A stretch of DNA of 32,480 nt, taken from the IMG/VR virus record IMGVR_UViG_3300021392_000011, positions 1-32,480 of that record; one strand, given 5' to 3'. The notes under the pieces are model-generated. The model saw only the letters and a program-made list of their open reading frames with translations, ran no database searches and was not told where the DNA came from. Position numbers and translations under genes: made by a program. The stretch is from a virus. Shown here one piece after another: positions 1 to 31,855 of the stretch; the first letter of the stretch is position 1; every line of letters starts with the position of its first letter.

Positions 1-546
1 ATGCGTAAATCAGAACTCATCCAACAACTCGAAAACCATCCAAACTTTGACGTTGACCGCCTCTACGAAATAGCCCAAGGTCGCCAGTTAACAAAAGCAG
101 TCCTATGGGAATACCTCTGTGAACTAACAGCATGGAAGCCATTAGAGGTGGTTCAATCCACAAGCCCCAATTGGTACTTAGTAGCTAGTAGCAGCGAGAC
201 AGGGCTTTGGTATAAGGTTAATATCATAAGTCAAGTTTGTGATTGTATCTACAGCGAGTACCGCACAACTCCCTGTTGTCATCTATCAGCTGCGATGGCA
301 CATCAAGAGAATCAGTGGATAGAACGTGCAGCTAAATATGGGCTTACTGTCTCAGTTGTGGATGGTAAGTACCAGGTGCAAGACAAAATGACCGGTTCCT
401 GTGTAGGGGAAATATGGTTTGACGAGGATGAGCAACTCTGGTTCCTAACTGAACCAAGAAAGCCAGGAATTTTGAGGTACGAGGGGGTAGATGAGGTTAT
501 CGAGTATTTGTCAGCAGTAGTAAGTTTTGGAAGTCAATTAGCTTGA
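1..546 (+). CDS. SWIM zinc-finger-like protein (181 aa)
   Basis: The protein has a CxC...CxH pattern near residues 79-93 (CDC, then CCH), which matches the SWIM-type zinc finger often found in nucleic-acid-binding proteins of mobile elements. The flanks are hydrophilic and no other domain is recognised. An ATG sits exactly at the window edge and gives a plausible N-terminus, but a longer upstream start cannot be excluded. Its stop overlaps the ribosome-binding site of the next gene, so the two are probably cotranscribed. The zinc-binding role is an inference from residue spacing; the cellular function is unknown. Confidence 0.6.
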   Translation: MRKSELIQQLENHPNFDVDRLYEIAQGRQLTKAVLWEYLCELTAWKPLEVVQSTSPNWYLVASSSETGLWYKVNIISQVCDCIYSEYRTTPCCHLSAAMAHQENQWIERAAKYGLTVSVVDGKYQVQDKMTGSCVGEIWFDEDEQLWFLTEPRKPGILRYEGVDEVIEYLSAVVSFGSQLA

Positions 547-557
547 GGAGAAAAAAG

Positions 558-884
558 ATGATTAATTCAGCAGATAAAGCCAAAGAATTACTTGTTCATT
601 ATTTTCAGATTTCAAACAATCACAGTCTCAATGCAGATAATCATAGCGAAATCGAAAACATTGTTAATTGCATTATTGAAGCAGCGGTTTACGAAATAGA
701 GCAACGGGTGCTTGCGACAAAGCCTAGTCAAACCAATAGCGTAACAAAATGGCGATTTTGCGAGAGAGGGGAAGAAGAAGTCGTTGAACTACCAACTAAG
801 CTCTCTGTTCAAGAAGTCCGCCAAGTATTTTATGAGTGGTTGTCCGACAGAACTACCGCTTATTTTGATTTGATTCACGACTAA
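558..884 (+). CDS. hypothetical protein (108 aa)
   Basis: I place the start at the ATG at 558 rather than the upstream in-frame TTG at 543, because a clear GAGGAG ribosome-binding site lies at 545-550, overlapping the previous stop. The protein is acidic, soluble and largely helical, with no signal peptide or membrane segment. I do not recognise a family. The close spacing to the preceding SWIM-like gene suggests a shared transcript. It is probably a small accessory protein of the element. Confidence 0.55.
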   Translation: MINSADKAKELLVHYFQISNNHSLNADNHSEIENIVNCIIEAAVYEIEQRVLATKPSQTNSVTKWRFCERGEEEVVELPTKLSVQEVRQVFYEWLSDRTTAYFDLIHD

Positions 885-956
885 GGATTTTTGCGCAACC
901 TGCATGAGTGGTTGGGTTTGTTGGCTACCACAAGTAAATCTAAAACAGACACAGCA

Positions 957-1754
957 ATGACGACAAAAAAGACTGAACAGACAAAAAAATTGCGCCCTAT
1001 CATTTTTGATGATGAGCCATTTAATGTTTTAGTATCTCTTGCCGGTTCTGGTGGAATACGAGGGGTTGATGACGAAAAACTAGGGGACAACTTTTCCTGT
1101 TTTGTCCTCAAAACCAACCTCTGGTATGGATTACCAAAGTGGGACAAAGGCGATCCAGAACAAGGAAAAGTTCCTCAATCAGACTTTTGGACTCAACTAC
1201 TCTTTGTTCCCACTGAGGGCATCAAAGCAGATAATAAATTGTACAGTAAAGTCAGCGATCGCACTGTTTGTCAAATGTTCAAGCGAGGGCGACATTTAAA
1301 TACTTTTTCCGCTGCTTGTAAAACCACTCGCAATGAAGTCAAACTAGACGACTTGCTGGATGAACTGAATATTCCAGAGCTTCAAGCGTGGCAGCTTGTT
1401 GTCTGGACGCCGGAATTCGTGGGTAAGTCAAATAAACATGGTAACTACTCTGCTCTTAAATGGGAGTGGAGTATGCCAGAAGGGGAGCGTCAACTAGAAA
1501 CTCAAAGCCGAATTATCAAAATGTATCAGGAGTTTGGCACAAACCCGATTGAACTTGAGTATGAAATAGATCCAGGATTACTCAACTTGGATACTCTTGA
1601 ACCTGAAGAAAAACGCAAGTTCAAAAAACTAATTGCTAGCCAGAACCAACCAATCTTACTCGGTGAAGCAGCACAAGCGTTTGCGGCCTTGCCTCAACAA
1701 ATAGAACAAGCTGCGATCAAAGCAGAAGCAGATTCTTCTGCTGGCAGCAAATAA
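957..1754 (+). CDS. hypothetical phage-type protein (265 aa)
   Basis: The frame is open from a TTG at 891, but the first plausible start is the ATG at 957, which begins MTTKKTEQTKK. The body is a mixed alpha/beta soluble protein, rich in Trp and Gly in its first two thirds and ending in an Ala/Gln-rich helical tail (about residues 225-265). Charged ends and a compact core would fit a nucleic-acid-binding early protein, but I see no diagnostic motif and do not assign one. An inverted repeat follows the stop, so this may be the end of a small transcription unit. Confidence 0.6.
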   Translation: MTTKKTEQTKKLRPIIFDDEPFNVLVSLAGSGGIRGVDDEKLGDNFSCFVLKTNLWYGLPKWDKGDPEQGKVPQSDFWTQLLFVPTEGIKADNKLYSKVSDRTVCQMFKRGRHLNTFSAACKTTRNEVKLDDLLDELNIPELQAWQLVVWTPEFVGKSNKHGNYSALKWEWSMPEGERQLETQSRIIKMYQEFGTNPIELEYEIDPGLLNLDTLEPEEKRKFKKLIASQNQPILLGEAAQAFAALPQQIEQAAIKAEADSSAGSK

Positions 1755-1765
1755 GACCAATAGTC

Positions 1766-1791
1766 AGTCCCTGGGTTAACAAACAGGGACT
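1766..1791 (+). terminator. hairpin after the 957-1754 gene
   Basis: AGTCCCTG at 1766-1773 pairs perfectly with CAGGGACT at 1784-1791 across a 10-nt loop. No run of Ts follows, so this is a weak or factor-assisted terminator, or an mRNA-stabilising 3' hairpin. Confidence 0.45.
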
Positions 1792-1802
1792 ATTTAAAAC
1801 TA

Positions 1803-2063
1803 ATGAAAAAAGTTATTTGCGGACACTGGAATTTCATTGTCAAAGATGCATGGATTCTCTGTCAAGATTGTCACATGGGGATCAACATTAACTCGCCCCA
1901 AGGTCAACGCTTGCTAAAGACAAAAGAGTCCAAGTCACCACTAGACTTTCAGCAACAACAAGCATACAACTCACTGGTCGAATCGTACAAAGAGTTGGTA
2001 AAAAACGCCGGTACGGATGATCCAGAAGTGTTAGCAAGTTTTGCGAATAATTCAATTGAGTGA
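1803..2063 (+). CDS. small zinc-knuckle-like protein (86 aa)
   Basis: The N-terminus carries CGH near residues 6-8 and CQDCH near residues 20-24. This gives a C/H plus CxxCH set that could bind one zinc ion. The remaining 50 residues are charged and helical. The start is the only reasonable ATG, with no strong ribosome-binding site. Its stop codon at 2061-2063 overlaps the GAGGAG site of the methyltransferase-clamp gene, so the two are translationally close. The function is unknown; a DNA- or protein-binding adaptor is possible. Confidence 0.55.
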   Translation: MKKVICGHWNFIVKDAWILCQDCHMGININSPQGQRLLKTKESKSPLDFQQQQAYNSLVESYKELVKNAGTDDPEVLASFANNSIE

Positions 2064-2074
2064 GGAGTTAAAGA

Positions 2075-4063
2075 ATGGCTTCAATCATTCCTGACAATGT
2101 ATTGGAAGTACTAACAAATTCAACAATACAATGTAACCGCTTAATTCTGCCACCTGACCAGCTAGATAGAAAGATTTACAAACAGGTGGATGACGTATTA
2201 ATCCGAATGGGAGGAAAGTGGAACAGAAAGGAAAAAGTCCATATTTTTCCTAAATCTGTTGATATTCAAGCAGCATTGGAAGAAATTCTGAGTAACGGGA
2301 AAAAGCCTGAGAAAAATCCACATTCGTTTTTTGAAACACCACAACTGATCGTGGAGCAAATGCTGAGATTTGTTGGCAATCAACCAAGGAGCTTTCTGGA
2401 ACCTTCCGCTGGCAATGGGGCAATTGCTAGCGAAATACGAAAAAAGTATCCAAACTCTTATCTCCACCTTGTAGAAATAGACAAGGATAGGGCTAAAGAA
2501 CTTATGCTTCAAGGATATTCAGTCGAAGCAGGCGATTTTTTGAATCTTGCCCTTGAACCGGTAGACTGTATCTTGATGAACCCACCTTTCAGTAATCCAC
2601 GAGGGGCTTACATTGACCACATACAAAAGGCGTGGTCTCTTTTAAATGAAGAAGGGAGCTTGATAGCGATCGCTCCTTTATCATTTACATTCGCCAAAGA
2701 CAAGAGATCCACAGAATTTAGAAATTTTGTTTCTGACAATGGATCATGGGAGCAACTACCAGATGATTCTTTCAAAGAATCAGGTACATCGGTATCTACA
2801 GTACTCATTGCGCTGAAGAAAAGAAAGTCTGTATCAGTGCAACCGCAATCCCACATTCTAAAACTTACTTCCACTCAAAGTGACCTAAATACCAACCTCT
2901 CATTGGTGAAAAGAGTTGTCCCAGATAAGCCCCATCACCCCATCTGCAAGAATATCTTGTTAGTGGCAGACTCAAAAACTCAACAAGTACAATTGACAGC
3001 GTTTGATTTGAGTTTGGGTATTCAGACTAGCTTCAGTGCTGTGGTAGAAACAGATGGAAAAATTGCGATTCCTGCTAAACTACTCAACGACATTGTTTCC
3101 CGTCTGCCAGAAGGAGAAATTACCCTCACCAGCGAGAGCACGATAGTAGACACTGAAGCTGAAGGAAATAGCATCAAGATAACCTTGACCTCTACATCAG
3201 GACGCTATCAAATGCAAGGCATGAGTGCTGAAGAGTTTCCCTCACTCCCACAAATTGAAGATGGAGTCGCAGTTGAACTACCAGTAGAAGCCTTAATGAC
3301 AGGGGTGCGGGGTTCTTTGTTTGCCACCAGTACTGATGAAACTAAGCAGGTATTGACAGGGGTTCATCTGAAAATGCAGCAAGAAAACCTAGAATTTGCC
3401 GCTACAGATGGTCATAGACTAGCGGTAGTGCAAACTACTAACAACCTACCATCCCCTCCTGGGAGTGACGAAAGCGATGCAGCAGCTGTAGCAGAAGCAT
3501 CGGAGACTTCCCCATTGGAGTTAACTTTACCAGCTACAGCCCTACGAGAACTGGAACGAATGCTAGGGATGAGTCAACCTAATGACACTGTTGCTCTTCA
3601 CTTTGAGCAGGGTCAAATTGTCTTCAAAGGAGGGGGACACCACTTAACCAGCCGTACTCTGGAAGGACAATACCCAGCTTACCGTAAGCTAATTCCGGAC
3701 TCTTTTATACGCCAGCTCACAATTGAGCGGCGTCAACTACTCAGTGCGGTGGAAAGGATTGCGGTATTGGCTGATAAAGAAAAGAAGGTGATCAAGTTTA
3801 ATATTGATAGCGTTCAACAACAGATTAACCTATCTGTAAACACTCAGTTGAGTAGTGGACAAGAATCAGTATCGGCACAAATATCTGGTGAGAGCCTAGA
3901 AATTGGTTTTAACTTCAAGTATCTAATAGAAGGACTGAAGACGCTTTCTACAGATGAAATTCAGATGCTGGTTAACGAAGCCAGTACACCTGTCATTTTA
4001 ACCCCTCTGGGTGGCTTGAAAATGACGTACTTGATTATGCCTATCAAGATTCACCATAATTGA
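2075..4063 (+). CDS. N6-adenine-type DNA methyltransferase fused to DNA polymerase III beta sliding clamp
   Basis: This 662-aa protein joins two complete modules. Residues 20-70 form the small N-terminal domain common in phage methyltransferases (LILPPDQLDRKIY). Residues 107-250 are a Rossmann methyltransferase with SAM motif I FLEPSAGNG (107-115) and catalytic motif IV NPPF (169-172), typical of N6-adenine enzymes. Residues 263-660 are a full-length beta clamp: TAFDLSLGIQTSF, AEEFPSLP, ATDGHRLAVV and the terminal YLIMPIKI match cyanobacterial DnaN. Three clamp folds fit, with an acidic insertion near 460-480. GAGGAG at 2062-2067 supports the ATG. The clamp would tether DNA-processing enzymes to replicating DNA, and the methyltransferase would modify that DNA. 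No stop or frameshift separates the halves, so this is a genuine fusion in the sequence as given. The methylation target is unknown. Confidence 0.9.
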   Translation: MASIIPDNVLEVLTNSTIQCNRLILPPDQLDRKIYKQVDDVLIRMGGKWNRKEKVHIFPKSVDIQAALEEILSNGKKPEKNPHSFFETPQLIVEQMLRFVGNQPRSFLEPSAGNGAIASEIRKKYPNSYLHLVEIDKDRAKELMLQGYSVEAGDFLNLALEPVDCILMNPPFSNPRGAYIDHIQKAWSLLNEEGSLIAIAPLSFTFAKDKRSTEFRNFVSDNGSWEQLPDDSFKESGTSVSTVLIALKKRKSVSVQPQSHILKLTSTQSDLNTNLSLVKRVVPDKPHHPICKNILLVADSKTQQVQLTAFDLSLGIQTSFSAVVETDGKIAIPAKLLNDIVSRLPEGEITLTSESTIVDTEAEGNSIKITLTSTSGRYQMQGMSAEEFPSLPQIEDGVAVELPVEALMTGVRGSLFATSTDETKQVLTGVHLKMQQENLEFAATDGHRLAVVQTTNNLPSPPGSDESDAAAVAEASETSPLELTLPATALRELERMLGMSQPNDTVALHFEQGQIVFKGGGHHLTSRTLEGQYPAYRKLIPDSFIRQLTIERRQLLSAVERIAVLADKEKKVIKFNIDSVQQQINLSVNTQLSSGQESVSAQISGESLEIGFNFKYLIEGLKTLSTDEIQMLVNEASTPVILTPLGGLKMTYLIMPIKIHHN

Positions 4064-4069
4064 TTGATT

Positions 4070-4106
4070 GTTAGCGCCGCTAGCGCTTGAAGTCAGGGGC
4101 GCTAAC
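4070..4106 (+). terminator. hairpin between the clamp fusion and recD2-like gene
   Basis: GTTAGCGCC (4070-4078) pairs with GGCGCTAAC (4098-4106) as a 9-bp GC-rich stem. The 19-nt loop contains a further GCTAGCGC. No T-run follows, so it may be a partial terminator or a processing hairpin just before the next ribosome-binding site GGAGA (4113-4117). Confidence 0.45.
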
Positions 4107-4126
4107 AGAATTGGAGAACTTGCACG

Positions 4127-6310
4127 ATGTTAGCACAGCAATCACAACAAACTGAAAAACTTTGCGGCAGTATCTGTCGTATAACTTTCAAAGCCGAAGA
4201 CTCTGGGTATGCGGTACTCAAAATACAGACTCCTGAATTCGAGGTTGTCACAGCAGTAGGTATCATCCCTGATGCTCAACAAGGACTCGATATTGAGCTA
4301 AACGGAGAGTGGGTTCGCCATCCTAAGTGGGGACAGCAATTTAAAGTTCTCTCCTACCATATGCCAGAACCAACACAGGAGGAAGGGATGGTTGCTTTCC
4401 TGTCCTGCCTTGATGGGTTAGGGGAATCAAAGGCTCAAAAGATTGTAGAGTACTTTGGGGAGAATACTTTTAGAGTCTTCTCCGAAGATAGCACTCGCTT
4501 GTTGGAAATACCAGGAATTGGCAAGAAAACTCTGCCCAAAATACTAGAGTCATTCCAGGAAAAGAAAGAATTAAGTCGGTTAATTGGATTCCTTCATGAG
4601 CTTGGAGTATCAGCTAGCTATGCTAAGCGCATCTATGAGGAATACGGCGACAACGCCATCGGATGCATTAAAGCCAATCCTTATTTGTTAGCGGAGGAAG
4701 TCAGAGGCTTTGGGTTTAAGAGAGCAGATGAAGTTGCCAGGGGATTAGGGATTGGTGTTGATGCCTCAGTACGCATTACAGCAGCTATTTTCCACAACTT
4801 AAAAGAAGCAGCCAACAGAAATGGGCATTGCTTTTTGCCATTAAACGATCTTCTATTCTCTGCGAAAGCATCACTAACTCTACCTGATTATCAACCCTGT
4901 GATCAAGAAATTGTACAACAGGTGAGCACCCTTAGTATCAAGGGAGTACTTGTAGAAGAGAATGGTAGAATCTACCTGCGCTCTTACCACCAAGCTGAAC
5001 TGGAATTATCAGCAACACTTCGGTCATTATGTGGAAAGCTAGAGTTGGAGTGTGAAGATTTAGAAGATTGGCTAATTGATTACGAGATAGAAAATGAAAT
5101 TCAATTAGCAACTCAACAAAGAGAAGCAGTTAAGCTTGCTGCCTCAAATAACTTAATGGTGATCACGGGTGGAGCAGGAGTAGGAAAATCCACAATATCC
5201 AAAGCTATTTTGAGCTATTGGCATAGCCAGAAAAAGAGAGTCGTAGCAATAGCACCAACGGGAAAAGCTGCACAAAGAATCCGTGAAGTAGCAGATTTCC
5301 CAGACGCTAGTACGATCCACAGGCTATTAGGTTGGACAGGTTACAGCTTTCTGCACTACAAAGATAATCCTCTTGATGCTGACGCTTTCTTGATTGATGA
5401 AGGGTCAATGATTGACCTTAAATTAGCTCATGCTTTGTTTGATGCGATTCCTCCCCATGCAACCGTTGTGATCGTGGGAGATGTAAATCAGTTACCATCA
5501 GTAGGTGCTGGCAATGTCCTTCGGGATATTATCGATTCCGAAGAGATTCCAGTGGTCAGACTAACTGAGATTTTTCGCCAAATTGCTAAGAGTAAGATTA
5601 TTCAAGCATCACAAGCTATCAATGAAGGCTATTTCCCAAACCTAGAAAAATTGGGGCGTGATTCTGAGCCCAAAACAGATGCACTGTGGATTCCCTGCTC
5701 TCAAGGACAAATTCCAGAGGCTATTGAGTGGCTAGTTAATGACAAGCTTTTAAATATGGGGTACGAAGAAGATGATATTCAGTGCCTTTCCCCTATGCAC
5801 AAAGGAGATGTGGGAAATATTGAACTGAACAAGCTAATTCAACAAGCATGGAATCCGAAATATCCCATCCAATCAAACTGTGGAATATTCCGAGAAGGCG
5901 ATCGTGTTATCCAGACCCGTAATGACTACAATAAGCTGGTATTCAATGGAGATATCGGGAATATTGTAGAAATCGACAAAGAGGAGAATATTGCCTTAAT
6001 TTGCTACCCGGATTTTGATGGTAATGATCGCTTTATTGAATATCAATTATCCGATCTCAAAGATGTGATGCTGGCATACAGTATTTCAGTGCATCGCTCC
6101 CAAGGCAGTGAGTTTCCTGTGGTGATTCTCCCGGTATCCATGCAGCAGTACATGATGTTACAACGAAACCTTTATTACACAGGAGTGACTCGCGGGAAGA
6201 AACTGGTGGTGATTGTAGGGGAAGAGAAGCCATTACAAATTGCGGTGCAGACTAACCGCGTCTTAAACCGCAATACCACGCTTAGGGAGCGGTTGGCAGG
6301 CAATCTGTAG
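4127..6310 (+). CDS. recD2: RecD2-type SF1B DNA helicase
   Basis: At 727 aa this matches the usual length of RecD2/TraA-like 5'-3' helicases. Residues 10-80 look like the N-terminal OB-like domain. Residues 90-210 contain helix-hairpin-helix segments (LLEIPGIGKKTL, GFGFKRADEVARGLGI). Walker A is GGAGVGKS (348-355), motif II LIDEGSMID (422-430) and motif III VGDVNQLPSVGAGN (450-463). The C-terminus has the SH3-like 2B region and helicase motifs V and VI (VHRSQGSEF, YYTGVTRGKK). All catalytic residues are present. RecD2 proteins act outside RecBCD, in fork repair and recombination. The position after the clamp and before the replication genes suggests a role in phage DNA replication or recombination. 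Confidence 0.92.
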   Translation: MLAQQSQQTEKLCGSICRITFKAEDSGYAVLKIQTPEFEVVTAVGIIPDAQQGLDIELNGEWVRHPKWGQQFKVLSYHMPEPTQEEGMVAFLSCLDGLGESKAQKIVEYFGENTFRVFSEDSTRLLEIPGIGKKTLPKILESFQEKKELSRLIGFLHELGVSASYAKRIYEEYGDNAIGCIKANPYLLAEEVRGFGFKRADEVARGLGIGVDASVRITAAIFHNLKEAANRNGHCFLPLNDLLFSAKASLTLPDYQPCDQEIVQQVSTLSIKGVLVEENGRIYLRSYHQAELELSATLRSLCGKLELECEDLEDWLIDYEIENEIQLATQQREAVKLAASNNLMVITGGAGVGKSTISKAILSYWHSQKKRVVAIAPTGKAAQRIREVADFPDASTIHRLLGWTGYSFLHYKDNPLDADAFLIDEGSMIDLKLAHALFDAIPPHATVVIVGDVNQLPSVGAGNVLRDIIDSEEIPVVRLTEIFRQIAKSKIIQASQAINEGYFPNLEKLGRDSEPKTDALWIPCSQGQIPEAIEWLVNDKLLNMGYEEDDIQCLSPMHKGDVGNIELNKLIQQAWNPKYPIQSNCGIFREGDRVIQTRNDYNKLVFNGDIGNIVEIDKEENIALICYPDFDGNDRFIEYQLSDLKDVMLAYSISVHRSQGSEFPVVILPVSMQQYMMLQRNLYYTGVTRGKKLVVIVGEEKPLQIAVQTNRVLNRNTTLRERLAGNL

Positions 6311-6477
6311 GACTTATCGTATCTTCAATAGTTACGTTACTGTCCTCAATGTTGGTGATCGTATTTTGATAGCCACAATGAGGGCAGCAAATTTTGTTGC
6401 CTACGCTTTAGCGGATGCTGGCTACAGACGCTCCGAATCGCAGTTGAAATGATTGAGAATTTCTAAATGAAGATTTG

Positions 6478-7055: not shown

Positions 7056-7109
7056 ATGATTCAATTTTATCACATTACAGATTTCGCGGAAAAAGGAGGG
7101 GTGAAATGA
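7056..7109 (+). CDS. 17-aa leader peptide coupled to the initiator gene
   Basis: An AGGAG site (7043-7047) sits 8 nt before an ATG that encodes MIQFYHITDFAEKGGVK and stops at TGA 7107-7109. The stop overlaps the initiator's ATG (ATGA), the classic geometry for translational coupling. A second ribosome-binding site (AAAGGAGGGG) for the initiator lies within the last codons of the ORF, so its translation would control access to that site. The peptide itself has no recognised motif. Whether it is functional or merely a translational valve is inference. Confidence 0.5.
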   Translation: MIQFYHITDFAEKGGVK

Positions 7110-8374
7110 TTTCCTGGCTGGAATTATCTGCAATCCTAAATAGACCGATTGCTTTTCACCGAATCTTTGCCACAGTTGGAAGGGGAGCTATCCCAGGATT
7201 ATTCCTTAGTCAAGCTTTTTACTGGACAAATCGAACTCAAGACCCTGAAGGGTGGTTTTACAAAACTCAAGATGAATGGTTAGAGGAAACAGCTTTAATA
7301 CGGTCAGAACAAGAGAGGGCAAGAAGGCAACTCAAAAAAAATGGCTTAATTGAAGAAAAAAAGCAAGGTCTTCCTTGTAAAGTTTTTTACCGTATCAACA
7401 AAGCGGCACTGTTGCAACAAATATCTCAGTTAGCAAGCAAAACGATCCCTGCAAACAGCAATGCTGTATCGGACAAACAAGAATGTTCAAATGAACAAAC
7501 TAGTTCGGTGTTCTCTGCAAACAGCAATGCTGGATCGAGCAGACATTCTATATATACAGAGAATACAACAGATACTACAGCAGATATAATACCCCCCTAC
7601 CCCCCAGCGGGGGGACAACAAAAACAGCCGGATTCTGAACAGCTAAATCTTGGGTTTCCGGATTCCGGAACTCAACCGGAAGACTCGGAACTCAACCGGA
7701 AGACTCAGCTACCGGAAGAATCTTCCTCCCTGGCTAAAAAAACCAAGATCTTGGACAAACCGGAAGGATCTAGTCCGGGAGCTAATTATTCCGCGACGGC
7801 GAATGAGAATTATTCTCATTCTTGTTGGGACTCCACTATTAATAGTGATAATGGGAGCCCAGGTAAGATCAAAAAAGGTGGTAAGAAGACAAGTAACAAG
7901 AAGGGCAAAAAAAATATACCCTCATTAAGCCCAGAAGAGTTGAATTATTTCTTCCAGGCATACCATGCCGAGAAGCCATCCAATTTTAAAACTCACACAC
8001 GCAAGCTTCTTGCTGAAGATGAAGAGCGTATCGCTAAGTTGGTGGAAAAGTATGGCGACCGCTCTCTGGATATGTTTGTGGCTGCTTTAACTTATTGCAG
8101 GGAGCAAACTTGGTCAGGGTGGAGAGAGGGTGAAAAGATACTCACTTTTTTGTTCTACAACAACAAGGTTCCAATGTATGCCGACAGGCATAGAGATGCG
8201 ATGGAGTCTGATTCTCAGTACCGAGCAAGAGTAGAGGGACGCGCTCTCTCAATGGACAAGGGGCGTCAGCCCAAGGTGTACGACAACGACGGCAACGAAG
8301 TAACTGGTGCGGCAGCAGAAGCATTTAATGCTGTAGCCTCAAACCCTTATCTACAAAGAATGCTAGAACTTTAA
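7106..8374 (+). CDS. phage replication initiator, lambda O-like organisation
   Basis: This protein has 422 aa. Residues 1-110 are a winged-helix domain of the kind found in phage and plasmid replication proteins (FYKTQDEWLEETALI then ARRQLKKNGLIEEKKQG and a beta wing). Residues 115-270 are a low-complexity, Ser/Thr/Asn-rich linker. Residues 275-422 form a helical C-terminal domain (LSPEELNYFFQAYH, YGDRSLDMFVAALTYCREQ). The order of DNA-binding domain, linker and partner-binding domain, followed by loader and DnaB genes, matches replisome organisers such as lambda O. The linker DNA is dense in repeats and palindromes. Expression is probably coupled to the 17-aa leader ORF. It should bind the origin and recruit the loader-helicase complex. 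Confidence 0.72.
   Translation: MISWLELSAILNRPIAFHRIFATVGRGAIPGLFLSQAFYWTNRTQDPEGWFYKTQDEWLEETALIRSEQERARRQLKKNGLIEEKKQGLPCKVFYRINKAALLQQISQLASKTIPANSNAVSDKQECSNEQTSSVFSANSNAGSSRHSIYTENTTDTTADIIPPYPPAGGQQKQPDSEQLNLGFPDSGTQPEDSELNRKTQLPEESSSLAKKTKILDKPEGSSPGANYSATANENYSHSCWDSTINSDNGSPGKIKKGGKKTSNKKGKKNIPSLSPEELNYFFQAYHAEKPSNFKTHTRKLLAEDEERIAKLVEKYGDRSLDMFVAALTYCREQTWSGWREGEKILTFLFYNNKVPMYADRHRDAMESDSQYRARVEGRALSMDKGRQPKVYDNDGNEVTGAAAEAFNAVASNPYLQRMLEL
7449..7847. other. putative replication origin inside the initiator gene
   Basis: Two 18-bp direct repeats that contain the palindrome CAGCAATGCTG lie at 7449-7466 and 7515-7532. An AT-rich stretch (TATATATA near 7550 to ATATAATA near 7591) follows. 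A C6/G6 hairpin is at 7600-7614. A cluster of about seven CCGGA motifs spans 7628-7763 and includes a perfect 20-bp tandem duplication (7666-7705). Perfect palindromes are at 7743-7754 (CCAAGATCTTGG), 7801-7821 (10-bp arms, 1-nt centre) and 7834-7847 (CACTATTAATAGTG). Iterons, an AT-rich zone and dyads in the linker of an initiator gene are the hallmarks of lambda-type origins. This is inference from architecture. Confidence 0.5.
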
Positions 8375-8995: not shown

Positions 8996-10411
8996 ATGTA
9001 CTCCAATAACACTACCAAGTCAGAACCGGCCAATGTTGTTGAGTTGCAGCTAGCTGAAGGTTGTCTTCCTCCTCAAAACATTGATGCTGAGGAGGCAATA
9101 TTGGGAGGGATATTGCTAGATCCTGAGGCGATTGGTCGGGTTGTTGATATTCTGCTCCCAGAAGCTTTTTACATCAAGGTTCATCAGGAAATCTACAAAG
9201 CAGCTTTGGAGCTTTTCGACAAAGGAGAACCAACAGACTTAATGATTGTTACTGACTGGCTGTATGCTAATGGCTTACTAGACAGTGTGGGTGGTCAAAG
9301 TAAGCTAGGGCAGTTAGTAGAGCGCACTGTATCAGCAGTCAATGTTGACCGTTATGCAATGCTGGTGATGGACAAGTACCACCGCCGCAAGTTAATTGAA
9401 GCGGGGAATGAGATTGCACAACTGGGCTACGAACACCCTACTTCGCTGGAAATGCTTCTTGATGATTCAGCCGAGAAGATTTTCTGGATTCAAGAACAAA
9501 GCCGCCAAAGCGATCGCTACCAGTTAGAATCCGCAGAGCAAATGGCAGTTCCACTATGGGAATCTATTGAGCAGGGTTTAAATGCAGGGATATCTACTGG
9601 ATGGTCTGACCTAGACGAGCTAACTGGAGGATTACATCGGAAAACTATCACAATTGTGGGTGCTGATTCCCATATGGGAAAAACCAGTTTCATGGTTGGG
9701 TTGTCGCATCAAATTCTCACAGAAGTTGGCAAGCCTGTTCTATTTTTCTCTTGTGAAATGTCCAAGGAGCAGCTTAATCCACGGTTGCTTGCTAGAGTCT
9801 CTGGGATTGACTCTAGCCGACTGGTCAGAGGGGATATGCTAGGGGGGGTAACTCAAGCAGAGTGGGGAGTCTTAGCTGGAGCAATTGGTACATTTAGTGA
9901 GCTTTCTTGGCTTGTCTACGATGAACCAAGCCCATCAATATCAACTATTCGTTCAATTGTCAAGCAAGCTATTAGTAGAAAAGGTAACTTAGGAGCTTGT
10001 TTTCTTGATTACATCCAGATGCTTCGACTGGATAGCTCTCAGAATAGGGTGCAGGAACTGGGAGAATTGACGAGGCAGTTGAGAGCGATCGCAAAAGATT
10101 TTGATTTCCCCTTCTTTGTTGGCTCCCAAGTTAATCGGGAATTAGGAAAAAGGAATAATAAGCGTCCAACAAAGAATGACCTGAGGGATTCAGGAGAAAT
10201 TGGCGAAGCTGCTGATTTGGTACTCTGTCTTTACCGGGATGCTCATTATTCCAAGAATCCCAACGATAAAAATATCGAAATCATTGTGGACAAAAACCGT
10301 CCCTACGGCAAATTAGGGACGGCAAAGATGATGGTGGATTTGGAGACTTGCACTTTTATGCAAGTGGATAACCGTTATAGAGATACGGTTGACGAGTTTG
10401 AAACTTTTTGA
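8996..10411 (+). CDS. dnaB: replicative DNA helicase DnaB
   Basis: At 471 aa this is a full-length DnaB. Residues 22-125 are the helical N-terminal domain (PQNIDAEEAILGGILLD). The RecA-like motor follows with Walker A GADSHMGKT (222-230), CEMSKEQL, the motif H3 core FLDYIQML, GSQVNRELGKR and DLRDSGEIGEAADLV. It would form the ring helicase that unwinds the fork 5'-3'. Walker A reads DSHMGKT where host DnaB usually has RPSMGKT, a small divergence expected of phage homologues. There is no intein, although cyanobacterial DnaB is a common intein host. The ATG lies 3 bp after the loader stop, so the genes are cotranscribed. Confidence 0.95.
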   Translation: MYSNNTTKSEPANVVELQLAEGCLPPQNIDAEEAILGGILLDPEAIGRVVDILLPEAFYIKVHQEIYKAALELFDKGEPTDLMIVTDWLYANGLLDSVGGQSKLGQLVERTVSAVNVDRYAMLVMDKYHRRKLIEAGNEIAQLGYEHPTSLEMLLDDSAEKIFWIQEQSRQSDRYQLESAEQMAVPLWESIEQGLNAGISTGWSDLDELTGGLHRKTITIVGADSHMGKTSFMVGLSHQILTEVGKPVLFFSCEMSKEQLNPRLLARVSGIDSSRLVRGDMLGGVTQAEWGVLAGAIGTFSELSWLVYDEPSPSISTIRSIVKQAISRKGNLGACFLDYIQMLRLDSSQNRVQELGELTRQLRAIAKDFDFPFFVGSQVNRELGKRNNKRPTKNDLRDSGEIGEAADLVLCLYRDAHYSKNPNDKNIEIIVDKNRPYGKLGTAKMMVDLETCTFMQVDNRYRDTVDEFETF

Positions 10412-10418
10412 TCTTTTT

Positions 10419-10439
10419 ATCACATTATTAAAATGTGAT
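10419..10439. promoter_or_regulatory. operator-like palindrome ATCACA-N9-TGTGAT (copy 1)
   Basis: A 21-bp dyad with perfect 8-bp arms (ATCACATT and AATGTGAT) and a 5-bp AT-only centre lies 9 bp before the intein-bearing gene and just after dnaB. An identical half-site and spacing recur at 14452-14472. It could bind a dimeric regulator of the modification block. The 8-bp AT-rich arms could also form a weak RNA hairpin. Confidence 0.5.
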
Positions 10440-10448
10440 TTAACTATT

Positions 10449-12470
10449 ATGTACCAATTAAATCTTTTTGACAACCAAAGAATAACTTCAGCAAAGCGAG
10501 ACCTTCTGTTGAAGCAAGCCCTTCCTTGCAGACAAGATACTGACCTGCTCAAACAAAGCTCTGCCATAATTTCTGAGGCAATTTCTTCATTTAATCCGTA
10601 TGCAATAGTGGCTGCTGTTAGCGGGGGGGATGACAGCATGGCCGCTTACTATGTTGCAAAAATGTTGGGCGTGAAGCTTGATTTCATTCTTCATGTCAAT
10701 ACAAGGACTGGGATTCCGGAGACCACGCAATTTGTTCGGCATTTTGCAGACAAAGAATCCATGAAATACATAGAAGGAGATGCAGGGAACGCCTATGAAA
10801 GTCGAGTTCTAGAGAAAGGTTTTTTTGGCTTAGGAAGACGTGCTCACAACTACGCTTATCACATATTGAAACAAAGAAGGATAGAACACGAGCTATCCAA
10901 GATACGTAAACGAAAACGCGGTCGAAACATCTTGATCATAAACGGAGTCAGAAAGAATGAGTCAGACAACCGGCGCAAAAATTTTGCCGATGATGTTTAT
11001 CGGCACGATGGCTCCAATATTTGGGTGAATTTAATCCATTATTGGGAAAAGTCTGACTGCTTGGATTTTCTTGCTGACTGCAAAGCTTGCCGTAATCCCG
11101 TCTCAAAAGAGCTGTGTCGGTCTGGAGAGTGTATGTGTGTCGCTCCGAGTACGTTAATATCTACTCCGGGCGGATGGAAACCTATCGCCTTGATCTGCCC
11201 TGGAGATCTTGTGAATGGATTGGTTAATAACAAGGTAGTGCCTCAAAAAGTATTTTGGGTTCATAGAAATGCTCCAAAACTAATGTTTGAGGTAAAACCT
11301 CAGTACAGAAAAAGCATATTTGCTACAGCAAATCACCCTATTCTAGTTAGAAGGTTTCATACCGAACGAAAAAAGGAGCAAAACTATCGTCCCACAAAAG
11401 TGTTTTCGGCTCCAGAATATAAATCTGTTAGAGAGATTAAATCTCTAGTTGATACAGCAAGAACCTTTCATCAATCAAAAAAGGAAGGGTATTACATGGC
11501 TGTACCCGTTGATCAAACTGAAACACCTATAGAGTTAACAGAAGATCAATTAAAGTTGATTGGCTACTTTGCTTCTGAAGGCGCTTACAACTACAAGGGC
11601 AGTAAATGCCAAGGGCTTGTCTTCACTGTGAGCTTAACCCATTCGCTTGAAATGGGAAATCAGATAGAAAAATGCTTAAAGGCTCAGTCGTGGCATGTCC
11701 ACCGCAGGGAATGGACTGATACTCGAACCGGACGCCGTTTTTTAACTGTTCGCACTAATAATCGGGCTAGCTCGGATTGGATGAAACAGTTTATGTCTGG
11801 GCGATATTGCTATGAGAAGGACTTTAAGCCCCAGATTATGCAAGCGCCGATTAAGGATCAGACAAAAATTTTAGAGGCAATGTGGGAAGGAGATGGATCT
11901 GATTTTATACTTGATCGACCTGCTAGGAACGGAAAGAAATCCCGTCAAGAGGATTGCTCTGTTTACTCTTCCACTTCGCTTAAGATGGCATTACAAGTAC
12001 AAGAAATGTTGATACGTCGGGGTGAAGTTTATGGGCTACGAGTTAACCAAAAGCCAAATAAAATGGCTCGTTACCCTATGTATCAAGTCGGGTCTTCTAA
12101 GGGACGGATTGTAAACGCATTTTGGGAAGATCACATTCTATGGGTGAACATCAATTCGATTCAAGAATCAGAGGAGTGTGAAGCATGGAATTTGACCATT
12201 GATGGCCAGCCAAACTATATAACACCTTCTGGTGTCACGCATAATTGCGGCACGATGCAAAGCCAGCAAGCACGATTAGAGGCTGCGGCATTGTTCCCAG
12301 AGTGGGGGCAATGGCTTGATGAGTTAGAGAGAAAAGTAAAGCTAAAGTTTCCTTGGGGATGGGGGCAGAGTATACCCAAAAGCTTTCAAAACGAACAGAA
12401 AGGACAGATGAGGCTTTTCCCTTACGATAATTTTCAACCAATGTGCTCTAGTTGCATAAAGGAGAAGTAA
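10449..12470 (+). CDS. PAPS reductase-like PP-loop protein interrupted by a LAGLIDADG intein
   Basis: The start is placed at the ATG at 10449 (MYQLNLFDNQRITSA). The TTG at 10389 would overlap dnaB and the palindrome. The host part is about 303 aa. The PP-loop SGGDDS is at 58-63, VNTRTGIPETTQFV follows as in PAPS reductases, and a Cys-rich region (CKAC, C, then CMC/G) could hold an iron-sulfur cluster. The family splits ATP to activate a substrate, often for sulfur transfer. A 370-aa intein (residues 230-599) lies inside the Cys cluster. The N-terminal QLNLF (3-7) resembles a beta-clamp-binding motif, and QMRLF occurs near the C-terminus. The substrate is unknown. It is paired with a second PP-loop gene by a one-base overlap. 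Confidence 0.82.
   Translation: MYQLNLFDNQRITSAKRDLLLKQALPCRQDTDLLKQSSAIISEAISSFNPYAIVAAVSGGDDSMAAYYVAKMLGVKLDFILHVNTRTGIPETTQFVRHFADKESMKYIEGDAGNAYESRVLEKGFFGLGRRAHNYAYHILKQRRIEHELSKIRKRKRGRNILIINGVRKNESDNRRKNFADDVYRHDGSNIWVNLIHYWEKSDCLDFLADCKACRNPVSKELCRSGECMCVAPSTLISTPGGWKPIALICPGDLVNGLVNNKVVPQKVFWVHRNAPKLMFEVKPQYRKSIFATANHPILVRRFHTERKKEQNYRPTKVFSAPEYKSVREIKSLVDTARTFHQSKKEGYYMAVPVDQTETPIELTEDQLKLIGYFASEGAYNYKGSKCQGLVFTVSLTHSLEMGNQIEKCLKAQSWHVHRREWTDTRTGRRFLTVRTNNRASSDWMKQFMSGRYCYEKDFKPQIMQAPIKDQTKILEAMWEGDGSDFILDRPARNGKKSRQEDCSVYSSTSLKMALQVQEMLIRRGEVYGLRVNQKPNKMARYPMYQVGSSKGRIVNAFWEDHILWVNINSIQESEECEAWNLTIDGQPNYITPSGVTHNCGTMQSQQARLEAAALFPEWGQWLDELERKVKLKFPWGWGQSIPKSFQNEQKGQMRLFPYDNFQPMCSSCIKEK
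11136..12245 (+). mobile_element. 370-aa LAGLIDADG homing intein
   Basis: The segment starts with Cys1 (CVAPSTLISTPGG, block A) and has TANHP in block B. It carries two LAGLIDADG-type motifs, LKLIGYFASEG (139-149) and ILEAMWEGDGS (245-255), both with acidic residues retained. It ends with blocks F/G WNLTIDGQPN and GVTHN, followed by Cys+1. Cys1, the block B His, the penultimate His, the terminal Asn and Cys+1 are all intact, so splicing should be competent. The LAGLIDADG domain suggests active homing. The spliced junction would read GECM-CGTMQ. Confidence 0.88.
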
Positions 12471-13645
12471 TGCAGTTAAGTCTATTTGACAACGAACGAA
12501 TAACCTCAGCCGAAGCAATTGAATTAACGATGAAATCACTGCAAACCTATGGCAAAGATTACGAGCATTGGGTAATTAGTTTTAGCGGAGGAAAAGATAG
12601 TAGCACTCTAGTTACTTTGACTATCGATTTGATTGAGACAGGTTGCATTCCTAAACCAAAGTCACTTCATGTTTTATACGCCGATACCCGAATGGAATTG
12701 CCCCCACTTCAAATGTCAGCAATGCAAATCCTCTCCGAATGTAAACGACGCGGCTTTGAAACAGAAGTAGTGATGGCTCCTATCAAGAAGCGATTCTTGC
12801 CTTATATTTTGGGTCGTGGAGTACCACCACCTAACAATACTACGATGCGCTGGTGTACCCAGAAGATCAAACTTGATCCGATGAAGGTGGCAATGCAAGA
12901 ACTGTACGAAAAGTATGGCAGGCTACTCAGTCTCAATGGGGTTCGGATTGGAGAATCCGCAATACGCGATCGCCGCATCCTCTCTTCTTGTTCTAAAAAC
13001 GGAAGTGAGTGTGGTCAGGGTTGGTTTCAACGGGAGCTCCCTGATTTTATCTGCGACAAGTTAGCACCCATTCTACATTGGCGAGTGTGTCAAGTGTGGG
13101 ACTGGCTGCAATTCGACGCCCCGAACTTGGGATTTGACACTGAGGTATTAGTGGATGCCTATGGGGGTGATGAAGCTGAAGAAATCAACGCACGGACAGG
13201 GTGCATTTGCTGTCCACTAGCTAGTAAAGACCTGGCTTTGGACGCTCTAATCCAAATGCCCCATTGGTCTTACCTTACCCCTCTCAAGGAACTTCGACAT
13301 TGGTATCTCTGGGCACGGCGCTTTGACAATCGCCTCCAAAAACACGGGGAGATAAATAAGGATGGCAAATTATCAAAGAATCCCTGCCGCAAGGGGCCAC
13401 TCACGATTAAAGCTAGACAGGAAATGTTAGCAGCGGTTCTGGCAATCCAAGACAAGGTTAACACTGCTGCCATTAAACGGGGTAGGCCACTGGTGAACAT
13501 TCTTAACCAAGAGGAAATTAACTACATCCACCGGTGTCACGATAACCAAGTTTTCCCTCAGGGCTGGACCGGTGATGAGCCAATAGGCAGTGAGCTGTTG
13601 CCTCAGATCTACTCTGACGGCACTGTACAACCAACGTTATTTTAA
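12470..13645 (+). CDS. PAPS reductase/DndC-like PP-loop protein (391 aa)
   Basis: The ATG at 12470 overlaps the previous TAA, with AAGGAG at 12459-12464. The PP-loop SGGKDS lies near residue 38, LHVLYADTRMELPP follows, RWCTQKIKLDP is typical of the family, and a TGCICCP cluster near residue 249 could bind a metal or iron-sulfur centre. The layout recalls DndC and other phage PAPS-reductase-like proteins, but no DndB, D or E is present, so phosphorothioation is not supported. It begins MQLSLFDNERITSAE, closely matching the start of the upstream intein protein. QLSLF is the consensus bacterial clamp-binding pentapeptide. The C-terminus also ends in QPTLF. The substrate is unknown; a nucleic-acid base or backbone is likely from context. 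Confidence 0.82.
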   Translation: MQLSLFDNERITSAEAIELTMKSLQTYGKDYEHWVISFSGGKDSSTLVTLTIDLIETGCIPKPKSLHVLYADTRMELPPLQMSAMQILSECKRRGFETEVVMAPIKKRFLPYILGRGVPPPNNTTMRWCTQKIKLDPMKVAMQELYEKYGRLLSLNGVRIGESAIRDRRILSSCSKNGSECGQGWFQRELPDFICDKLAPILHWRVCQVWDWLQFDAPNLGFDTEVLVDAYGGDEAEEINARTGCICCPLASKDLALDALIQMPHWSYLTPLKELRHWYLWARRFDNRLQKHGEINKDGKLSKNPCRKGPLTIKARQEMLAAVLAIQDKVNTAAIKRGRPLVNILNQEEINYIHRCHDNQVFPQGWTGDEPIGSELLPQIYSDGTVQPTLF

Positions 13646-17221: not shown

Positions 17222-17764
17222 ATGGAAGCCGTTGTGACCTCTGCACATCTTTTCTGCGGGGGTGGGGGAGATACCCAAGGTGCTTTAGTAGCAGAATATA
17301 AACCCATTTGGGCGATAGAAAACAACAAGTACGCGGCAGCAGTTTATCGAAAGAGATTCCCTGATGTACAACTCATTGAGTCCGATATTAGACAATTATC
17401 AGATGAGTTTATTCGACACCTCTCAGTACCAGACGTGCTTATCGGAGGAAGTCCTTGTCCGGATTTCTCCATTGCTGGAAATCGATCCGGTCTTGAGGGT
17501 AGTCGCGGTCAACTGTTTTTTGAATTCCTCAGATTTTTGCGATTACTCCAGCCTAAGACTTTCCTCTTTGAAAATGTTAATGGCATCCTTAGCCACGACA
17601 ACGGAAAAACTTTCCAGAAGATCATTGAAGCGTTTGGACAATTGGGGTATATGGGGTCTTGGCAGCTCCGAAATGGCAACCGACACGTTCCGCAAAACAG
17701 ACCAAGAATTTTTGTGGTGGGTATACACAGGGAATATACAAGCAACAAAGTTAAACCCATGTAA
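17222..17764 (+). CDS. C5-cytosine DNA methyltransferase, N-terminal part (frameshifted)
   Basis: A strong GAGGAGG site (17205-17211) precedes the ATG. The 180 aa contain motif I LFCGGGGD, motif IV GSPCPDFS with the catalytic Cys, motif VI FENVNG and motif VIII QNRPRIFVVG, the standard order for Dcm-type enzymes that methylate cytosine at C5. The frame then stops at TAA 17762-17764, before the target-recognition domain and motifs IX-X. Those continue in the +1 frame just downstream. Unless the shift is bypassed, the product is truncated and probably inactive. Confidence 0.85.
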   Translation: MEAVVTSAHLFCGGGGDTQGALVAEYKPIWAIENNKYAAAVYRKRFPDVQLIESDIRQLSDEFIRHLSVPDVLIGGSPCPDFSIAGNRSGLEGSRGQLFFEFLRFLRLLQPKTFLFENVNGILSHDNGKTFQKIIEAFGQLGYMGSWQLRNGNRHVPQNRPRIFVVGIHREYTSNKVKPM

Positions 17765-18674
17765 GCAATCTCTCACTGAGTGTTTGGATGGTAAGCCTAT
17801 TAATTCTTTCAATGGTTCAGCTATTGATGAAGCTTATACGCTTCGAGAGAACAGTGCTAAGGCAGGCAAAGGTAATCGAAAACACCCTAATACTTTCGTC
17901 ACTGTTGCAGTTAAGGGCAGGCTTGGGGAAAGCCCTTGGATTGTCAATGAGTCTCCTTGCCTAACATCTAAAGAATGGACAAGGAGGTTGCACATCAAAA
18001 GAGGGAAGAAAGGGGGAGGAGTTGGATTTGCGATTCTTCAAAAAGTACCAGGAAGTGAACGTCAATATTTTGATAATGCTCCATGTCTGCGATCGTTGCC
18101 ATCTACCAATGGCAAACAAGCAGGTACAGGGGCGTATAAAGTCCGTGAATTTCAAGGGGAGCAATGGCGAGAACGTCCTATCACTGCGACTGAGGCAGAA
18201 CGCTTAATGGGCTGGGAAGAGGGGTGTACAGCGACTGGAGTGACAAGGGACGGTCAGGAAATTGAAATATCTACCACTCAGCGAATAAAAATACTGGGCA
18301 ATGGAATTATCCCAGTGGAAGTGACAGAGATTCTAAATGAATTGAAAAATGCTATCAACATTAAAACACAAAGGCTGGGCTGTGGAATTTCGCATTCAGG
18401 ACAACGAGATAATTTATTCTCTGACAACACCAGAGGGGAAACTCCAAGGCCAAACTTACACAGCATTAACCCCAGTACAGAGCAAGAAAGCGAAGGAGTA
18501 TGCGCTTTCAGAAATCAATGTGCTGACGGAAGCACCACCAGAGTTAATCAACCCAACTCTCAATCCAGAACCAGACGAAGTAGCAGAAATATTGGCGCTA
18601 ATGATACAAAGTTTGCCGAAAGAACAGCTAGTCGGCAAAGCTATTTTGGACGCCTGGGACAAGTCGAGGGTTGA
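17757..18674 (+). pseudogene. C5-cytosine methyltransferase, C-terminal part in +1 frame
   Basis: This continues the methyltransferase without loss of sequence: the target-recognition region, then RPITATEAERLMGW (motif IX region) and RIKILGNGIIPVEV (motif X), all needed for activity. The join lies near AAACCCATGTAA, where a shift at CCC-A would restore the frame. The conserved protein seems to end near 18350. The remaining 320 bp of open frame overlap the next gene and look like a shadow (Ser/Arg/Thr/Asn-rich). A mutation, sequencing error or programmed shift are all possible. Confidence 0.65.
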
Positions 18675-28986: not shown

Positions 28987-29002
28987 GGTTATAAAACAAT
29001 TC

Positions 29003-29031
29003 TCCAGCAAGCAGCATCAAGTCTTGCTGGA
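29003..29031 (-). terminator. hairpin before the fibre-like gene
   Basis: TCCAGCAAG and CTTGCTGGA form a perfect 9-bp stem with an 11-nt loop. In minus-strand RNA it is followed by GAATTGTTTTATAAC. It sits between the head-side genes and the fibre gene and could set their relative expression. Confidence 0.5.
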
Positions 29032-29044
29032 AATCTAGGTAAGA

Positions 29045-29353
29045 TCAACCAGCTTGGGTTTGCACAGGAAGAGTCTGCTCATGTTTGGCAATTTCCTCTG
29101 CAAAAACTTTCCAAGGTACACCCTCTGGCTTTTCCAAGGAATACTTTTCCGCCAAAGATTGCAACTCTTGCCAAGACATAGCTTTAAGTTCAGTAAGTCG
29201 GTCTGGCTTGTCCTTTGTTGTTTGAGGATTTGGCTGATCTTGGTCTACAACTGGAGTCTGAGTAGACCAGCCGTCAGCAATCCACCCCTGAGCATCAATG
29301 GGATGGATGGTCCGAGTCTTCCCATCTTTATAGACTTTCACGGTGTTAGCCAC
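29045..29353 (-). CDS. small virion-associated protein with GTG start (102 aa)
   Basis: The open frame begins at 29410, but a GTG at 29353 with a preceding G-rich site gives the natural start (VANTVKVYKDGKTR). It overlaps the end of the head gene upstream by 16 bp. Residues 60-100 (MSWQELQSLAEKYSLEKPEG) look like a short helix-extended-helix domain of SAP/HeH type that may bind DNA. The N-terminal half (DAQGWIADGWS) is common in small phage head-tail proteins. The role is tentative. Confidence 0.55.
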   Translation of the reverse strand: MANTVKVYKDGKTRTIHPIDAQGWIADGWSTQTPVVDQDQPNPQTTKDKPDRLTELKAMSWQELQSLAEKYSLEKPEGVPWKVFAEEIAKHEQTLPVQTQAG

Positions 29354-29754: not shown

Positions 29755-29772
29755 TTTGTTTAAATCTTTCTC

Positions 29773-30732
29773 TTAAGCTACTATTGGTGCGTCAATCACT
29801 CCTTGGAGACGTGCAGCGGCGCGACCATCCATAACCGCAACCCCTGCTTCCCACTCCACGACGGTACGCATACAGGGTTTGGATTGCAATTCTCCCAAGT
29901 CCCGTACTTCAATTTCCATGTTTTGAAGTCCCTCAACCATAAGATCTCCAAAACAAACACAATAGATTGAAGTAGAAGCTGGTGTGCCACCCCCAGGATT
30001 AGCCTCGGCGAAAGGTAGTATATCCTCTCCGTTATTATCTTGCTCTAAAGCCTCAATTATGATGCCCTGGTAACGCATTACCTCTCTGCCAAAGTCATCA
30101 GGGGTTAGAGTGATAAAACCAGCAACAGCGGTATCCCTAATTGCTGCCTGCATCTGTAACTTCATCTCAAGATTCATAAACAGGCGCAGATCATCGTCAC
30201 CTCGACTTCTACGGCGTCGCCGCACTCGTGAAATTGTTCGATCAAGTGCCCTTAAAGAAAGAGGGTCACCACCTGAGGAGTTACCCGCATCAATAACTTG
30301 TGTACCCGTTAAGCGTCTTTGAAGGCCATCAAATTCACGAGGATTAATACTACTATCCCCTTTAAAAAAAGTTCTAGTCCAAGACAAGGCAAGGCTATCA
30401 ACCTTATTCAGCTCTTCATCAGACCTAATGCCTTCGCCAAACGATCGCATCAGGCTTAAGTCTACATCCAGATATCCACCAGCGATCGCTAGGGTCTCCA
30501 CCTGAGGATTCATTACACCTGTGCTTTCCTCAAAGCTTTCATTGAGGCCACGAAAACCCACTCCTGGCATTTTTTCTTGCCGGTTGTAACGAAGTGCGTT
30601 ACCTTGGATAGTTCTAAAAGTCAGGTTGTCCAACACTGGTGAGGAGTCAGCAAATTGCTGCACGATCGCAGACTCCCAGTCTTGCCCCATTGAAGAGTAG
30701 CGCTTTGAGGCTTCTATTAAGCTTATTCCCAT
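29773..30732 (-). CDS. phage major capsid protein
   Basis: This protein has 319 aa. RYNRQEKMPGVGFRGLNESF, STGVMNPQVETLAIAGGYLDVD and the alpha/beta C-terminal region with SIYCVCFGDLMVEGLQ followed by a terminal strand match HK97-fold capsid proteins of tailed phages. An E-loop-like segment and an arginine-rich stretch (RRRRRS, about 170-176) are present. It follows a scaffold gene and is followed by head-type proteins, the expected order. Expression is likely driven from within the 30733-30976 region, given the terminator upstream of it. Confidence 0.85.
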   Translation of the reverse strand: MGISLIEASKRYSSMGQDWESAIVQQFADSSPVLDNLTFRTIQGNALRYNRQEKMPGVGFRGLNESFEESTGVMNPQVETLAIAGGYLDVDLSLMRSFGEGIRSDEELNKVDSLALSWTRTFFKGDSSINPREFDGLQRRLTGTQVIDAGNSSGGDPLSLRALDRTISRVRRRRRSRGDDDLRLFMNLEMKLQMQAAIRDTAVAGFITLTPDDFGREVMRYQGIIIEALEQDNNGEDILPFAEANPGGGTPASTSIYCVCFGDLMVEGLQNMEIEVRDLGELQSKPCMRTVVEWEAGVAVMDGRAAARLQGVIDAPIVA

Positions 30733-30783
30733 TGCAAAGTAGAGGATTCAAAGTTTTTGTTAAGCAACCAAGCTTCAAGAAAT

Positions 30784-30901: not shown

Positions 30902-30976
30902 TTCATAGCTACTGGTTTCCTGTTTTTAGGTTATCACAAATCAATCGTATAATTTCACCTGAGGAGCTACAGATAT

Positions 30977-31081: not shown

Positions 31082-31855
31082 TCAACTTCCCCCTCCTCTC
31101 TTCTTCATTTCCCGACCAAACCTAGCTCGTTCAGAAGGGGTCATTTTCATTTTCTCTTCTACAGATAATCCAGTGTTTTGCCCTCGAATGCCGGGAACAA
31201 AGCCACCACCAGAAGCTTGGGAGCGTGGCTCAAAAGCGGCTCCTAGCACTGGATCAGAGGCAAACTCTGTCATCAACATAGCAAGATCTTTCGCTTTACC
31301 TGTGGGAGCATCATAGTCAATTAATCTAGTACCTTTCTGTAAAACTACGAAGTTACCTGCCTCATCACGCTCAATTCTCTGCAAAGCATGGGGAAGGATA
31401 AAATCAACAAAGGCAGCATTGGAACTGTCACTGCCACTACGTTTGCCCCCCGCATCAAAGAAAGCTTGCCGGACAATCGCAATCCGTCTTTCTTGTTCTA
31501 GCTGCTTTTTCAAGTTAGCAACTTCTTGGTTTAATTGTTCAGCCCGTTGTTTTTCGGAATTAATAATCTGGGCTTGTTCTTCAACTGTTTTCTGCCGTTG
31601 CTCTTCGGCTTCTTCAACTTGTTGTTTAAATTCCGCAAACTTCTGCGGATCAATTCCTTCAAACTGCTTCTTGAAAGCTGCTAACTCTTCCTGGTTTTTT
31701 TCGATTGTTGCCGCAAGCTGATCCCGCTCATTCCTGAGAGCCTGAATCGTTTTTTTGTAACCCGAATCATCAACTGTTGCTGGAGGGGGCTTTTGTTGTC
31801 CTTCAGATTCGATGGGAGTTTCTGGGGTATCTCCTTGAGTGCTTCCTTGTGACAT
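31082..31855 (-). CDS. capsid scaffold protein
   Basis: This protein has 257 aa. After a disordered Pro/Gly/Ser N-terminus (1-30), residues 33-125 are a long heptad coiled coil rich in Glu, Gln and Lys. A small globular part follows (RIAIVRQAFFDAGGKR, FVDFILPHALQRI), then a Gly-rich tail ending EKMKMTPSERARFGREM. This architecture and its place directly before the capsid gene are typical of phage scaffolds, which guide procapsid assembly and leave before packaging. No protease domain is present. No portal or terminase gene lies to its right inside the window. Confidence 0.8.
   Translation of the reverse strand: MSQGSTQGDTPETPIESEGQQKPPPATVDDSGYKKTIQALRNERDQLAATIEKNQEELAAFKKQFEGIDPQKFAEFKQQVEEAEEQRQKTVEEQAQIINSEKQRAEQLNQEVANLKKQLEQERRIAIVRQAFFDAGGKRSGSDSSNAAFVDFILPHALQRIERDEAGNFVVLQKGTRLIDYDAPTGKAKDLAMLMTEFASDPVLGAAFEPRSQASGGGFVPGIRGQNTGLSVEEKMKMTPSERARFGREMKKRGGGS

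Follow-up and report, generated by a model that had tools for sequence, protein, structure and literature searches.

A predicted adenine DNA methyltransferase fused to a captured host sliding clamp in a provirus-like element of Symploca

The window analysed here is a linear fragment of 32,480 bases, the whole of the IMG/VR virus record IMGVR_UViG_3300021392_000011, and it carries a gene in which an adenine-N6 DNA methyltransferase domain is joined covalently to a complete bacterial beta sliding clamp. The fusion is genuine, natural and rare. Judging by phylogeny, its clamp half was captured from a marine cyanobacterial host of the genus Symploca. We propose, at somewhat less than an even chance, that the host loads the fused clamp, which would tether an N6-methyladenine (m6A) methylase to the replication fork and so shield new provirus DNA from restriction. 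The gene and its parts are as follows.

2075..4063, plus strand: methyltransferase-clamp fusion gene, 662 aa (open reading frame; same frame in Symploca sp. SIO1C2)
2075..2824, plus strand: predicted gamma-class (TaqI-type) adenine-N6 DNA methyltransferase domain, residues 1-250 (Pfam, motifs, profile, AlphaFold model)
2825..2857, plus strand: linker, residues 251-261 (low model confidence at residues 250-258; contains GTG codon 255)
2858..4060, plus strand: beta sliding clamp, residues 262-662 (Pfam, TIGR00663, model; host-derived by tree)

The gene is a single open frame running from ATG to TGA with no internal stops, exactly as an earlier interpretation made from the letters alone (the sequence-only reading) had placed it. 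Pfam recognizes an MTS domain at residues 107-200 and all three DNA_pol3_beta domains, and the TIGR00663 (dnaN) profile matches residues 263-658 with 317.6 bits (1e-94; cut-off 137.65). The S-adenosylmethionine-binding motif I (FLEPSAGNG) and the NPPF motif named by that reading are found at residues 106-114 and 169-172, respectively, and the full three-domain DnaN that it described is likewise present. Its central proposal, a covalent methyltransferase-clamp fusion, holds, as does all that it read directly from the letters. Both parts of the protein are whole, the methyltransferase is of a predicted adenine type, and the gene lies within a viral replication region. The further suggestions of that reading, namely methylation at each loaded clamp, dimeric rings bearing two methyltransferases and protection of phage DNA, are hypotheses.

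The same 662-residue frame, 99% identical over all residues, is found in contig JAAHFP010000022.1 (109,729 bp) of the Symploca sp. SIO1C2 metagenome-assembled genome (MAG). The two genes differ by 23 substitutions and no indels across 1,986 bases. Positions 1-6355 and 27076-32097 of the window match the Symploca contig at about 98-99%, with a middle section that differs: the window holds 20.7 kb of phage genes, whereas the Symploca contig has 7 kb encoding one CHAT/AAA and one WD40 protein. Because these middle sections differ, the two elements represent separate assemblies. A missed stop or frameshift between residues 245 and 265, which the sequence-only reading had raised, is absent from the independent assembly. 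The chance that sequencing or assembly error joined two genes is therefore close to nil, since the second assembly holds the identical open frame, even though a C5 methylase of the window is split over two frames and small indels may thus occur in the assembly. The replacement of about 20 kb of phage genes by the CHAT/AAA protein and a 1113-aa WD40-repeat protein in the Symploca contig (L273 17119 to L274 3885) is possibly a defence module, or the outcome of recombination.

Outside these two copies, both halves were always found as separate genes. Further methyltransferase-clamp fusions were absent from 80 viral methyltransferase loci and 57 viral clamp loci (about 140 viral loci), and from 386 cyanobacterial genomes, 22 genomes of the family and 391 of the order, the last search scoring three candidates per genome; these genome samples overlap, giving about 700 cyanobacterial genomes overall. 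Viral contigs scanned with a single protein query, either the full fusion or just its clamp, gave no match, and free-standing relatives of the two halves never occurred in the same viral or genomic stretch. A natural fusion of this kind was not reported in the open-licence papers searched. One candidate, Erythrobacter phage ZS04, was rejected because its protein is 262 aa long and lacks a clamp; this ZS04 methyltransferase (L015 5920-6708) is annotated as a ‘DNA polymerase processivity factor’.

The origin of the clamp half, missed by the sequence-only reading, is the most informative fact on how the protein may work. In a tree of 45 clamps, both fused clamps fall inside the clade of Symploca chromosomal DnaN with support of 100/100. 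The fused clamp is 78-81% identical to Symploca chromosomal clamps (81% to the clamp of the same MAG), about 61-66% or less to clamps on viral contigs, and 42-43% or less to the best clamps of plasmid and phage records. A viral or plasmid lineage is ruled out by the tree, the nearest plasmid clamps being just 42-43% identical. These comparisons indicate that the fused clamp is a captured host dnaN. Its synonymous divergence (dS) from the host copy of the same MAG, 0.55, lies within the range between Symploca species (0.51-0.57), which suggests a capture about as old as the Symploca species. A viral clamp that is 61-66% identical to the fused one is disrupted by a frameshift (L216 10001-11153).

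Substitution patterns indicate that the fused clamp is under purifying selection. Of the clamp changes that separate the fused copies, 15 are synonymous and 5 nonsynonymous (dN/dS about 0.10, dN being nonsynonymous divergence), and the chance of so few nonsynonymous changes is about 2e-6. Changes along the fused lineage affect 20 of 124 columns in domain I, 9 of 124 in domain II and 22 of 102 in domain III, clustering in stretches of domains I and III whose aligned E. coli counterparts are residues 18-31, 276-279 and 295-300. The partner-binding cleft, whose 21 positions we take to have the role they have in E. coli beta, is identical to that of the host clamp at 17 positions, the differences being N570K, N637S, V657I and Q658K. 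The clamp part is modelled mostly with a predicted local distance difference test score (pLDDT) above 90, and its best PDB matches are all beta clamps (TMt 0.76-0.94). The full-length model is reliable for the clamp part only, as mixed alignments of both domains put methyltransferases onto the clamp, and the models are of single chains; the fused clamp may form rings with a second fused copy, with the host's clamp, or in both ways.

The ancestral start codon of the clamp, ATG, is now CTA (Leu 262), so that the clamp would be made within the fusion unless GTG codon 255, seven codons ahead of the clamp start and the sole alternative in-frame start seen nearby, is used. That codon, and the fact that both domains end where their free-standing relatives do, lend some weight to the view that the fusion is an accident of gene capture, a read-through between neighbouring genes whose halves act alone, with tethering unimportant and a free clamp arising from GTG 255 or by proteolysis. 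Yet the clamp's own start is gone, the frame is still open in both copies, and a two-gene ancestor was not seen: the shared gene g4 of L316, a syntenic viral relative, is followed by neither of the two. We regard such an accident as unlikely. The region upstream of the host dnaN did not match the linker.

The methyltransferase half is, by its motifs and profile match, a complete TaqI-type gamma-class adenine DNA methyltransferase, with activity predicted. Motif I precedes motif IV (NPPF), which is the gamma order. Residues 1-250 match free-standing phage and plasmid proteins of 246-262 aa that are 35-40% identical and end at the first residues of the linker, and every residue invariant in the family is retained in the fusion. 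The best solved relative by profile is M.TaqI (3.5e-12). The AlphaFold model of this half has a mean pLDDT of 93, and Foldseek places M.TaqI (3.0e-10, rmsd (root-mean-square deviation) 3.5) among its best matches, along with other adenine-N6 DNA methyltransferases. The absence of a large recognition domain suggests a relaxed specificity. Between the fused copies, the methyltransferase half (window 2075-2830) differs at 3 of 756 bases, all nonsynonymous, and the clamp half at 20 of 1203; recombination is a possible cause of the lower divergence of the methyltransferase half.

This pattern bears on a competing explanation in which the clamp half is what matters, recruiting host DNA polymerase III (Pol III) together with clamp-binding proteins onto viral DNA or competing with the host clamp, with the methyltransferase as a bulky passenger or minor helper. 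It would fit the strong constraint on a host-derived clamp, the clustering of changes in domains I and III, and a methyltransferase half that has no synonymous change between copies and in which constraint is unproven. However, all family-invariant residues of the methyltransferase persist despite an old capture (clamp dS about 0.55), whereas their loss would be expected in a dead passenger. We therefore give this explanation a minor but real share of the probability.

The genes around the fusion place it in a replication region of a viral element:

891..1754, plus strand: upstream neighbour, function unassigned (conserved in two related viral contigs)
4127..6310, plus strand: RecD2-type helicase, directly 3' of the fusion
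7106..8374, plus strand: replication initiation O-like protein
8996..10411, plus strand: DnaB-like replicative helicase
29773..30732, minus strand: major capsid protein, marking the viral origin of the element
31082..31855, minus strand: head scaffolding protein

The cyanophage origin implied by the sequence-only reading stands in part. The capsid protein, the scaffold and the IMG/VR record speak for a virus, but the Symploca flanks point to an integrated element and not to a demonstrated free cyanophage: a tyrosine integrase lies 11.5 kb upstream of the matching region, and CRISPR (clustered regularly interspaced short palindromic repeats) repeats and Cmr genes lie downstream. From these flanks, the element is a provirus, or what remains of one, within the filamentous marine cyanobacterium Symploca. 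Among the genes scanned, the element showed neither a polymerase nor a clamp loader, and the surroundings of the scaffold gene showed neither a terminase nor a portal. Since RecD2, O-like and DnaB neighbours occur without a polymerase or loader, replication of the element probably relies on the host replisome. The related virus L316 shares genes g1, g3 and g4 with the element, but neither the fusion nor RecD2 follows its g4, which suggests that the fusion is accessory. Promoter and terminator scans gave results at chance level.

Several other features of the element were recorded. Four copies of a 37-nucleotide CRISPR-like repeat, spaced 73-78 bases, lie at window 32116-32383, and the same repeat occurs at many sites along the Symploca contig, near the Cmr genes. 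The C5 cytosine methylase is spread over two overlapping frames (window 17222-18674), through sequencing error, decay or frameshift. A PAPS-reductase-like protein (window 10389-12470) contains an intein-like insertion (PF14890, scoring under the curated cut-off) and is followed immediately by a DndC-like/PAPS-reductase protein (window 12452-13645).

Replication-linked methylation could also serve a purpose other than anti-restriction, for example the timing of provirus replication or the control of lysogeny by hemimethylation. The element is temperate-like, with an integrase on the Symploca contig, an O-like initiator and DnaB, which speaks for such a role. Its other modification-type genes (the C5 methylase and the DndC-like gene) nevertheless fit anti-restriction better, with neither a target motif nor a regulated site known; we consider this purpose improbable.

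Taken together, the observed fusion, the clamp's host origin and purifying selection, the retention of most of its cleft residues, the intact catalytic motifs and the viral replication-gene setting lead us to favour protection from restriction. A temperate Symploca virus would have captured the host dnaN and fused it in frame to the end of a free-standing gamma-class adenine methyltransferase. The host clamp loader would place the fused clamp on replicating provirus DNA, where it would work with host Pol III; loading by host machinery is the simplest reading, because the element seems to be without a polymerase or loader and the clamp is nearly the host's. The ring would consist of two fused subunits, or of one fused and one host subunit. 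The m6A methylase would thereby be held at the replication fork, and new DNA would be methylated during synthesis, ahead of host restriction enzymes. Described more generally, the protein is tentatively a self-tethered, replication-coupled methylase that uses the host clamp as a moving platform, forming host-loaded rings with one or two adenine methylases that deposit m6A behind the fork, a description in which we have appreciable but limited confidence. Replacement of the host clamp, which the sequence-only reading had also entertained, is not supported, as the same MAG keeps a chromosomal dnaN and the scanned genes include neither a polymerase nor a loader. M.EcoGIX and M.BceJIII illustrate that incoming DNA can be guarded against restriction by an m6A methyltransferase linked to replication (PMC7736820). 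An m6A methyltransferase of this different family, artificially tethered to DNA polymerase I, was active and was stimulated by polymerisation, which indicates that tethering such an enzyme to replication machinery is workable (PMC7736820).

Several points count against this proposal. T4 alpha-glucosyltransferase binds the T4 clamp, yet the contact is not the main determinant of glucosylation levels (PMC13216743), and Dnmt1 can do without PCNA binding (PMC4575159). Within our own data, the fusion is known from only two near-identical copies, and with 0 synonymous and 3 nonsynonymous changes between them, selection on the methyltransferase half after the fusion is unproven. Evolution of the fused clamp has outpaced that of host clamps (dN 0.110 versus 0.057-0.065 at like dS). 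One residue is deleted from the strand corresponding by alignment to the domain-III dimer interface of E. coli, a change that could affect how the clamp dimerises.

A short peptide is the usual means by which enzymes working at the fork contact the clamp. If the proposal is true, this clamp-carried m6A methylase would be a natural device that marks new DNA as it is copied and, to our knowledge, the first natural covalent union of a clamp and a DNA-modification enzyme. The weight of clamp contact for DNA modification is disputed for Dnmt1 and T4 glucosyltransferase, and a natural fusion without an on-off contact offers a ready test of whether clamp tethering alone lets modification keep up with replication. 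The fusion also shows a virus that captured its host's essential clamp and retained it under selection. With domains so cleanly delimited, the protein might serve as a tool for labelling freshly synthesised DNA.

The fusion resembles known systems in its parts. Like the bacterial beta clamp (DnaN, TIGR00663), its clamp half has three domains and a conserved cleft and is nested in Symploca chromosomal DnaN, but it differs in having an added N-terminal methyltransferase of 250 aa, in having lost its own start codon, and in being encoded by a provirus beside the host's normal copy. The methyltransferase half shares with the gamma-class enzymes M.TaqI, CamA and type I M subunits the order of motif I then IV, the NPPF motif, and profile and fold matches; unlike M.TaqI, it is compact, at about 250 aa, too small to hold the large C-terminal recognition domain, and is fused to a clamp. 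The plasmid single-strand m6A methyltransferases M.EcoGIX and M.BceJIII are of the beta class with DPPY (PMC7736820), and membership of their family was rejected because the fusion has the gamma motif order and NPPF; the tie between m6A and replication, proposed for the fusion, is a parallel by analogy and not by kinship. T4 alpha-glucosyltransferase and the clamp gp45 likewise associate a phage DNA-modifying enzyme with a sliding clamp (PMC13216743), although the T4 contact is non-covalent, the chemistry is different, and the clamp is the phage's own. Mammalian Dnmt1 is a DNA methyltransferase brought to the fork by the sliding clamp PCNA (PMC4575159), as we propose for the fusion, but it relies on a peptide contact reported to be dispensable, produces 5-methylcytosine, and works with a trimeric clamp.
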